Below are positions 9,355 through 32,128 of a stretch of DNA of 36,726 nucleotides, piece by piece. The notes under the pieces are model-generated. The model was given only the letters and a program-made list of their open reading frames with translations. It was not told where the DNA came from and made no database searches. The stretch's first letter is position 1, and every line of letters begins with the position of its first letter. A program made the position numbers and the translations under genes. The stretch is from Arcobacteraceae bacterium (GTDB lineage Bacteria; Campylobacterota; Campylobacteria; Campylobacterales; Arcobacteraceae): assembly GCA_029938215.1 (NCBI GenBank), contig JAOZVJ010000004.1, positions 1 through 36,726 on the forward strand. The letters run 5' to 3'.

Positions 9355-10724
9355 TAGACGATGTGAATTTGAAAAAAGAACAAAAATTCAACTTTACAGC
9401 TGTAAGTGATGAATGTATAAAATGTGGTAAATGCAAGTCTGTTTGCCCTATTTTTGAGATTAGTCACGATGAAACAACTAGCCCTAGGGGGTTTATTGAT
9501 CTGCTTGGTGCTTATAAAAGAGATGAGCTAGAACTAGACAAAACAACGAAAGATATTTTTGAAAGTTGTTTTTTGTGTACTTCTTGTACTGATGTTTGTC
9601 CAAATTCACTTCCTACTGATACCATAATAGAACAAATAAGATTTGATATAGCCAAAAAATTTGGAATTGCTTGGTATAAAAAAGCATTTTTTTGGCTTTT
9701 AAGAAATCGTAAGATTATGGATATTATGGCAAAAATGGGCTGGGTATTTCAAACTTGCGGATTAAAAATAAATCATAAAAATCAAAGTTCAAAATTTAGA
9801 ATAAATTTGCCAATTGAAATGATAAAAGATAGAACTTTGCCATTTGCAGATCGTAAGTCATTTTTAAATTCTTATCCTGAAAATATTATAAATAATAAAC
9901 AACAAGTATGCGTTCCCACTCAGGAGAGTGGGAACGAGGATAAAATTGCAGATAGTGAAAAATTATCAAAAGTTGCCATATTTATTGGATGCATTGGCAA
10001 TTATGCTTACACCAATATAGGGAAAAGCTTATTGTACATATTGGAACAACTAGAAATTGATGCTTTTATTCCTAAAAAACAACTTTGCTGTGGAGCACCT
10101 GCATATTTTACTGGGGACTTTAATACTGTAGATTATCTTATTAAGCAAAACATAGAATATTTTGAAACTTTTATAGACGATGTGGATGCTATTATTGTAC
10201 CAGAGGCTACTTGTAGTGCAATGATAAATACGGATTGGGAACATTTTTTACACGATCAACCAAATTGGCTTAAAAGAGCAAAAAAAATAGCACCTAAAGT
10301 AATAATGGCAACAAAATGGTTAAATGACAATACAAAATTAAATGAACTACTTAGCAATAAAAAATCCAAAAATCCAAATCTTAAACTTCCAACTATTACA
10401 TATCACGATCCTTGTCATGCAAAAAAAATGCAAGGAATATATAAAGAGCCAAGAAATCTCCTAGATAAAAATTATGAAATACATGAAATGAGTGATCCTG
10501 CTGCATGCTGCGGATTTGGAGGAGTTACTATGCAAAGTGAAAAATATCATCTCAGCAAAGCTGTTGGAAAAAACAAAGCAAAAATGATAAATGAAACAAA
10601 TGCGGATATTGTAAGTGCCGAATGTAGTGCTTGTAGAATGCAAATTACTGATAGTTTAGAAAGAACAAATTCTGACATAACATTTAAAAACCCAATAGAA
10701 TTAATTGCTGAAGCTTTAAAATAA
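9351..10724 (+). CDS. (Fe-S)-binding oxidoreductase, GlpC/heterodisulfide-reductase-type with CCG domains
   Basis: CIKCGKCKSVCPIF and CFLCTSCTDVCPN ferredoxin motifs; two CCG domains (QLCCGAPAYFTGD, AACCGFGG). Confidence 0.88.
   Translation: MIDDVNLKKEQKFNFTAVSDECIKCGKCKSVCPIFEISHDETTSPRGFIDLLGAYKRDELELDKTTKDIFESCFLCTSCTDVCPNSLPTDTIIEQIRFDIAKKFGIAWYKKAFFWLLRNRKIMDIMAKMGWVFQTCGLKINHKNQSSKFRINLPIEMIKDRTLPFADRKSFLNSYPENIINNKQQVCVPTQESGNEDKIADSEKLSKVAIFIGCIGNYAYTNIGKSLLYILEQLEIDAFIPKKQLCCGAPAYFTGDFNTVDYLIKQNIEYFETFIDDVDAIIVPEATCSAMINTDWEHFLHDQPNWLKRAKKIAPKVIMATKWLNDNTKLNELLSNKKSKNPNLKLPTITYHDPCHAKKMQGIYKEPRNLLDKNYEIHEMSDPAACCGFGGVTMQSEKYHLSKAVGKNKAKMINETNADIVSAECSACRMQITDSLERTNSDITFKNPIELIAEALK
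9912..9937. repeat. GC-rich REP-like palindrome inside a CDS (11-bp perfect stem, AGGA loop)
   Basis: CGTTCCCACTC-AGGA-GAGTGGGAACG; homologous to the reverse complement of the palindrome at 30732-30757. Confidence 0.85.
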
Positions 10725-30220: not shown

Positions 30221-30646
30221 ATGAAAAAAATTATTTTTATAACAATATTTCTATCTTTATTTGTACAAGCAAAAGAAACAACAAAGTCTTTGTATTCAAG
30301 ATTAGGCGGTTATGACGCTATTACTGCGGTATCTAAAGATTTTCATATTAGACTTAAAGCTGATCCTCAACTTGGTCGTTTTTGGGCATATAGAGGTACA
30401 GATGGACTAGATCGTGAACTACAATTACTAATTGATTATGTTTGCGCAAAGACAGGTGGTCCAACTTTTTATACTGGTAGAGATATGCCCACAACGCACA
30501 TAGGAATGAAAATAAGCCAAAGTGATTGGAAGATTTTTATGACTCTTTTCAAAGACACTTTGAAAAAATTTAAAGTTGCCAAGCAAGAAAAAGATGAAGT
30601 TATTGAGTTTATTGAAAGTTTAAAAACAAGTATGGTGGAACTATAA
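30221..30646 (+). CDS. Truncated hemoglobin (group I type) with N-terminal signal peptide
   Basis: Start ATG 30221 (MKKIIFITIFLSLFVQA|KE); SLYSRLGGYDAITAVSKDF, GGPTFYTGRDMPTTHIGM. Confidence 0.88.
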   Translation: MKKIIFITIFLSLFVQAKETTKSLYSRLGGYDAITAVSKDFHIRLKADPQLGRFWAYRGTDGLDRELQLLIDYVCAKTGGPTFYTGRDMPTTHIGMKISQSDWKIFMTLFKDTLKKFKVAKQEKDEVIEFIESLKTSMVEL

Positions 30647-30653
30647 TATCTAC

Positions 30654-30724
30654 TATATTTTATAATTATTTTCCAACTTCAAGAATATCATTGCTGTCAT
30701 AACAGCATCATTTATTGCATTATG
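30654..30724 (-). pseudogene. Orphan duplicate of the 3' end of the DnaQ-like exonuclease gene (direct repeat copy 1)
   Basis: 71/71 identity to 31518-31588. Confidence 0.95.
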
Positions 30725-30730
30725 CTTTTC

Positions 30731-30812
30731 TCGTTCCCATTCTCCTGAATGGGAATGCAGACTAAAATAATGACACAAAGATACACACCCTCAATGAAGA
30801 TATTGGGTACGA
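30731..30812. repeat. REPIN/MITE-like double palindrome
   Basis: Left stem-loop CGTTCCCATTC-TCCT-GAATGGGAATG, right stem-loop ACCCtcAATgaagatATTGGGT; outer ends TCGTTCCCA / TGGGTACGA form imperfect terminal inverted repeats. Confidence 0.65.
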
Positions 30813-30829
30813 ACAAAACAAACTCTTAA

Positions 30830-30858
30830 AGATATATTTATATCTAATTTGATATAAT
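30830..30858 (+). promoter_or_regulatory. Putative TA promoter/operator: perfect palindrome at the -35 position plus TATAAT -10
   Basis: AGATATA-TT-TATATCT (30830-30845) and TATAAT (30853-30858), 6 bp before the ATG at 30865. Confidence 0.55.
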
Positions 30859-30864
30859 TCAAAT

Positions 30865-31206
30865 ATGGAATGGAAAGTTAAATTTTATAAAACTCAAGAC
30901 AATAAATCACCAGTTGAAGATTGGTTAAAAATTTTAGATATAAAAACACAATCTAAAATTATTAGAAATCTTACTTTATTGGAAAAGTTTAATTTAAATT
31001 TAAAACAACCGTATGTTAAACCACTAGAAAATAAATTATATGAAATCAGAACAAAAGATACAAAAGGTATTTATAGAATAATTTATTTTGCCAATACTGG
31101 CAAACAATTTATTATGCTAAATGGTTTTACAAAAAAAACTCAAAAAACACCTGTAAAAGAAATTGAGTTAGCAAAACAAAGAATGAAGGAATTTATAAAT
31201 GAGTGA
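30865..31206 (+). CDS. higB: HigB-like toxin (RelE superfamily, phage Gp49-like)
   Basis: VEDWLKILDIKTQSKIIRNLTLLEKF..VKPLENKLYEIRTKDTKGIYRIIYFAN..MLNGFTKKTQKTPVKEIELAKQRMKEF. Confidence 0.9.
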   Translation: MEWKVKFYKTQDNKSPVEDWLKILDIKTQSKIIRNLTLLEKFNLNLKQPYVKPLENKLYEIRTKDTKGIYRIIYFANTGKQFIMLNGFTKKTQKTPVKEIELAKQRMKEFINE

Positions 31207-31471
31207 TTTACAAAAATTAATTAAAAATAATCTTAAAAATGAAGAATTTAAAAAAGAGTGGGATAATTTAGAATTGAGATATATGATTATTGAACAATTA
31301 ATTAAATTAAGAATTGCCTATAATTTAACACAAACTCAACTAGCTAAAAAAATAGGAACAACACAAGCTGTAATTAGTAGAATAGAAAATGGAACTACGA
31401 ATATAGGTATAGATTTTTTAGACAAGATAGCCCGAGCCTTTAATAAAAAAATAAAGTTTCAAATAGTTTAG
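31199..31471 (+). CDS. higA: HigA-like HTH (XRE) antitoxin
   Basis: LRIAYNLTQTQLAKKIGTTQAVISRIENGTTNIGIDFLDKIARAF; overlaps toxin by 8 bp. Confidence 0.9.
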   Translation: MSDLQKLIKNNLKNEEFKKEWDNLELRYMIIEQLIKLRIAYNLTQTQLAKKIGTTQAVISRIENGTTNIGIDFLDKIARAFNKKIKFQIV

Positions 31472-31516
31472 ATACTAACTTTGCATATTCTAGTGGAACT
31501 ACAAGTATAAGTTTTA

Positions 31517-32128
31517 TTATATTTTATAATTATTTTCCAACTTCAAGAATATCATTGCTGTCATAACAGCATCATTTATTGCATTATGTTTAGATAGAAT
31601 TGGCAAAGATAATTTTTTCATAATTGTATTAAATCTTAAATCAATATTTCCCTGAGGAATAGCTTCTATCACTTTATCATAATATAAAGCAGAAACTTCT
31701 ATTTGTTTATTTGGCAAAGTTATGCCAATTTTTGGTTTGATATATTTATTTATCATAGCTACATCAAATTCTAAGTAATATCCAACCAAAGGACGATTGC
31801 CAATAAAATCCAAAAATTCTTCAACTACTTGGTCTATATCTTCTGCATCTGATAAATCGCACTCTCTTATTTGATGAATTTTAATAGATTCTGCTTGTAA
31901 ATTTGTTTTTGGCTTAATAAATCTTTCAAATTTTTTACTTAAAATTATTTTATTATTTTTTATAACAACCGCACCAATCGAGATAATATCATCTACTTTT
32001 GGACTAAGTCCAGTTGTTTCACAATCAAAACATACATATTCATCATTTTTGTTTTGTTCAAAAAGATAAGAATAGTTTCTATCTTTTAATCCTTTTTTAT
32101 TAAAATATGTTTTGATTTTGTTAAACAT
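31517..32128 (-). CDS. DnaQ-like 3'-5' exonuclease (DEDDh)
   Basis: YVCFDCETTGLSPKVDDIISIGAVV, LVGYYLEFDVAMINKYI, KHNAINDAVMTAMIF. Confidence 0.92.
   Translation of the reverse strand: MFNKIKTYFNKKGLKDRNYSYLFEQNKNDEYVCFDCETTGLSPKVDDIISIGAVVIKNNKIILSKKFERFIKPKTNLQAESIKIHQIRECDLSDAEDIDQVVEEFLDFIGNRPLVGYYLEFDVAMINKYIKPKIGITLPNKQIEVSALYYDKVIEAIPQGNIDLRFNTIMKKLSLPILSKHNAINDAVMTAMIFLKLENNYKI
31518..31588. repeat. 71-bp direct repeat copy 2 (functional 3' end of the exonuclease gene)
   Basis: Identical to 30654-30724, offset 864 bp. Confidence 0.97.

Follow-up and report, generated by a model that had tools for sequence, protein, structure and literature searches.

Solitary toxin-antitoxin gene pairs in Campylobacterota seem able to insert by duplicating a long piece of their target

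Solitary toxin-antitoxin (TA) gene pairs can apparently enter a new site by duplicating a long stretch of it. In the window, the whole 36.7-kb stretch of Arcobacteraceae DNA analyzed here (contig 32 of a 1.73-Mb, 145-contig draft genome, 99.6% complete), a bare type II TA module is probably a recent insertion at the 3' end of an exonuclease gene, with about 71 bp of the target duplicated on either side. The locus is composed of the following features, listed from left to right.

30221..30646, plus strand: globin, truncated-haemoglobin-like, the intact left flank (ORF; PF01152 above cut-off)
30639..30727, minus strand: left repeat copy, an orphan exonuclease 3' tail (exact part 30654-30724; repeat comparison)
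30728..30813, no strand assigned: REPIN-like pair, a strong REP at 30730-30758 with a degenerate inverted partner at about 30779-30812
30865..31206, plus strand: HigB-like toxin of the Gp49 / RelE-ParE type (PF05973, 102.9 bits, cut-off 23.9)
31199..31471, plus strand: HigA-like Xre/HTH_3 antitoxin, overlapping the toxin stop (PF01381, 61.2 bits, cut-off 23)
31503..31591, minus strand: right repeat copy, the native exonuclease 3' end (exact part 31518-31588; repeat comparison)
31517..32128, minus strand: DnaQ-like 3'-5' exonuclease (PRK09145 type), the intact target gene (NCBIfam PRK09145 above cut-off)

Positions 30654-30724 and 31518-31588 agree at 71 of 71 bases in direct orientation with a spacing of 864, and this pair is the sole exact direct repeat of at least 25 bp within the window. 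When mismatches are allowed, the pair grows to 89 bp at 93% identity (30639-30727 and 31503-31591; ungapped alignment, same spacing). The right copy completes the exonuclease gene and ends in TAA. Its left counterpart is an orphan tail whose stop codon, TAG (30653-30655), lies 6 bp away from that of the globin at 30644-30646. The orphan has no visible function yet is perfectly identical to the native end, pointing at a recent event. An earlier sequence-only reading had described this exact repeat as the exonuclease 3' end, with its copies bracketing a palindrome pair and a complete HigBA-like module; all of this is borne out, as the REP pair, the Gp49 toxin and the HTH_3 antitoxin were each confirmed. 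Its statement that recombination between the copies would remove exactly 864 bp agrees with the spacing. The same reading took the word gtggaacta as a trace of a duplicated globin tail. Similarity does extend beyond the repeat, but its origin in the globin tail is doubtful: the sequence itself shows TGGAACTAC within the antitoxin gene as well, near 31391, so the nine-base similarity is weak evidence for such a duplication.

The toxin and antitoxin ORFs overlap by 8 bp with the toxin first. In this order, in the overlapping Xre antitoxin and in the combination of Gp49/PF05973 with HTH_3, the pair resembles HigBA / Gp49-HTH type II TA modules. It differs from them in missing the curated NCBIfam cut-offs (TIGR02683, 31.7 of 62.85 bits; TIGR02607, 19.9 of 47.7 bits), and we therefore call the module only HigBA-like, with toxin and antitoxin activity predicted. 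According to ORFs and Pfam, the insert encodes the TA pair only and no restriction-modification genes. Carriage by a plasmid or phage was considered and rejected, the closest plasmid HigB reaching 54.5% and viral contigs holding no relative. A separate, solitary PIN-domain (VapC-like) protein lies near the contig end (639-1049, minus strand).

The arrangement recurs elsewhere in the phylum. We collected 80 unique PF05973 (Gp49) TA loci across Campylobacterota and compared the DNA on both sides of each toxin, counting as a case any repeat of at least 60 bp at 90% identity or more; such repeats were found at spacings of 790-911. Besides the window, three loci carry one, so that the total is four of 80.

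Genome G385: tail of mfd, 84 bp exact, spacing 790
Genome G147: tail of recR, 60 bp exact, spacing 911
Genome G326: tail of an unnamed gene whose reading frame spans 467 codons or more, 69 bp at 94% identity, spacing 891

All four case assemblies are drafts. A comparable repeat was found at none of 260 control points, which are neighbourhoods of one gene family and not of other accessory genes (Fisher p about 0.003 for 4/80 against 0/260 by our own arithmetic, and about 0.012 without the discovery case). At every one of the four loci the repeat is the 3' end of a gene, and the order along that gene is intact gene, TA module, orphan tail. The repeated sequences are unrelated between the four genes and measure 60-89 bp or longer, around inserts of 0.7-0.9 kb. 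Pfam confirms mfd (TRCF domain), recR, a shikimate dehydrogenase and a CZB protein at the recurrence loci. In the recR case the duplicated 60 bp take in the end of aroE, so both recR and aroE stay complete; in G326 the duplication leaves one gene with its stop and the following gene with its start region. On a HigB tree of 84 proteins the cases fall as four separate changes, three of them within one larger clade, and so represent independent insertions.

Two further bracketed TA loci were set aside as different. In G102 (L164, 2998-5198) a repeat of about 280 bp at a spacing of 1905 lies inside an integrase/replication-gene element; here the TA genes and a replication-type gene sit between the repeats beside a tyrosine integrase, and the whole looks like an integrated plasmid-like element. 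In G238 (L242, 368-4739) the TA genes lie between two near-identical flagellin genes. We also observed in the G147 locus (L273, 2940-3110) an inverted repeat, CCCAAATCTCG...CGAGATTTGGG, with arms about 150 bp apart, between recR and the TA promoter.

Related genomes supply the uninterrupted form of two of these sites. Many sister species in the genus of G385 have the order mfd-CZB-RlmC or mfd-RlmC with one mfd tail and no TA genes. Nine loci in the G147 family show recR and aroE side by side, in convergent orientation and without TA genes; in most of them the two genes abut or overlap. The reading of the window locus as a bracketed insertion holds, and its equivalents in other genera thus have single-copy, TA-free counterparts in their sister species. 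For the window itself, the proposed ancestral globin-exonuclease junction was not recovered: among 104 family genomes no relative has it. The nearest named exonuclease matches (70-80% identical, Arcobacteraceae) have no toxin relative in their loci. Among the same 104 genomes, the globin occurs outside the window only in G002, beside another neighbour and with no comparable exonuclease match there, so an empty site cannot be demonstrated for this locus. Downstream of that globin (L153, about 560-780) lies a remnant resembling an integrase C-terminus, and upstream a tRNA-like sequence; scanning the window itself for Rfam families and tRNAs gave no matches.

The extent of the mobile unit can be read from modules at unrelated loci. 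When the modules of G147 and G385 are compared with these, DNA homology covers only about 640-650 bp, that is, the promoter region and the two genes, and its start coincides with the edge of the duplication in G385 and G326. With homology limited in this way, the mobile unit looks like a bare TA module, as far as sequence comparison can tell.

The palindromes between the copies appear to play no part in this. A REPIN is present between the repeats in the window only, one of the four bracketed loci, and the inverted partner of its strong REP is degenerate (z = -2.67). We considered the REPIN as the mobilising part and rejected it: the REP palindrome is repeated at several other places in the genome without flanking repeats, and the three other cases have no REPIN. 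For the same reasons we do not retain the proposal of a specific cassette made of a gene end, a REPIN and a TA module. The palindromes resemble the REP/REPIN elements of RAYT systems in their GTTCCC...GGGAATG form, inverted pairing and several genomic copies, and differ from them in that the 99.6% complete genome has no match to the Y1 transposase (PF01797) and in that a REPIN is not required for bracketed insertion. As the other copies are unflanked and this transposase finds no match, the REP pair is unlikely to bracket or move the module; the REPIN is incidental to the insertion.

Some REP copies are read within protein-coding frames. On the minus strand at 30656-30790, the orphan exonuclease tail runs in frame with the first REP as a 45-aa open frame (GEWEREKHNAIND...), with the same REP reading as in an ORF at L173. 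Further copies are read in frame in ORFs of different genes, in the window at 9911-9935 and in L173, L175 and L176 near position 1500. The peptides include CVPTQESGNE in a 457-aa Fe-S oxidoreductase and, elsewhere, CIPTQENGNE and HSHSGEWERG. Such in-protein copies recall the palindromic elements inside Rickettsia proteins.

How might a module of this size enter a gene end and leave a duplicated target? The insert would consist of a conserved core of about 0.65 kb and some extra DNA. In the copy-type repair that we favour, a strand would depart from the target at one boundary of the 71 bp, use the incoming TA DNA as template and then return to the target about 71 bp further upstream; filling in an equivalent staggered break could give the same product. 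We infer template switching or illegitimate recombination as the mechanism. If the copies later recombined, the module would be excised cleanly, and the toxin would be expected to counter-select such loss. Because the duplication leaves neither neighbour truncated, even at abutting or overlapping genes (recR/aroE, and the unnamed gene with its RhuM neighbour), insertions of this kind could survive selection. Only four of the 80 TA loci carry a repeat, indicating either rapid decay of the repeat or a different route for most insertions. One observation counts against a one-step insertion: beyond the perfect core, the window and G385 both show a short stretch that is still similar but has diverged, which a clean duplication does not predict.

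That stretch lends weight to homologous recombination with DNA of a related strain that already carried the TA genes beside its exonuclease, the old tail being left as the orphan. This is the main rival, although we judge it rather unlikely. It could take the form of a single crossover with a circle, or of one homologous and one illegitimate end, either of which would bring in the TA genes together with an exonuclease tail. The copies in the window and in G385 differ just beyond the identical core, near the stop codon, as if donor and recipient tails had differed, and the 45-aa frame that joins the orphan tail to the first REP looks as if it came from an old exonuclease allele interrupted by a REP. 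Against this, the donor would have to be conspecific, since the 84-bp core in G385 is the lineage's own sequence, from which the sisters differ; the recR repeat is clean and has no diverged tail; and no genome examined has the TA genes next to just one copy of the exonuclease or mfd. The genomes searched do not separate copy-type insertion from this recombination.

The remaining alternatives fare worse. The exonuclease tail could have been duplicated in tandem first, with TA and REPIN DNA entering between the copies later. Short tandem duplications are common and the REPIN does lie between the copies, but each of the four loci would then require a pair of rare events, and an interval of TA size in four of four cases, set against no comparable repeat at any of the 260 control points, makes this account improbable. 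An integrase-borne cassette, or an integrative element restoring the 3' end of its target gene, is very improbable. Tyrosine-recombinase elements leave a duplicated gene 3' end at their att sites, and the TA loci share with them one intact copy and one 3'-end remnant. They differ in having no recognised recombinase in any of the four inserts, no common core, as the repeats at the four genes are unrelated, and inserts of only 0.7-0.9 kb. Judged from translations, no tyrosine or serine recombinase was recognised in the window ORFs or in the inserts of G385 and G147; the sequence-only reading was thus right that the window lacks an integrase, and its comparison with an integrated element that regenerates its target is not upheld. 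An assembly artefact, conceivable in a 145-contig draft, is equally improbable given that the copies differ in their neighbours and in their stop codons and that those in G326 mismatch (94%).

Insertion with a long target duplication is a known behaviour of restriction-modification genes, first found in H. pylori, as summarised in PMC3874152, PMC1643837 and PMC3031569 for the work of Nobusato et al. (2000) and Furuta et al. (2010). In the passages concerned, a review presents it for restriction-modification systems and not for TA modules, and according to it the mobility of TA modules is commonly put down to known mobile elements carrying them (PMC3874152). Our literature searches, in which subscription papers were largely outside reach, returned no TA example. 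The present loci resemble the restriction-modification insertions in several respects: selfish toxin-plus-antidote genes, a duplication on the order of 100 bp and variable length, no transposase, occurrence in the phylum of the original H. pylori case, and empty sites in relatives for two of the four TA loci. The target-derived repeats that flank the inserts are of that order, with 71 bp exact or 89 bp at 93% identity in the window and 84, 60 and 69 bp elsewhere. The present loci differ in carrying a type II TA module rather than a restriction-modification system and in the small size of the insert (0.7-0.9 kb).

The window locus alone would be a curiosity, and its recurrence with empty sites is what raises its interest. 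Four independent Campylobacterota cases, two of them with empty sites, amount to a direct footprint of insertion and carry over to toxin-antitoxin genes a mechanism described for restriction-modification genes. This footprint makes the question of how solitary chromosomal TA modules move testable. As a tentative generalisation, which we regard as possible but doubtful, chromosomal type II TA modules may move autonomously and without a recombinase, entering gene junctions by insertion with long target duplication in the manner of restriction-modification systems. If true, this would give addiction modules a general route of spread that needs no vector element and does not break abutting genes.
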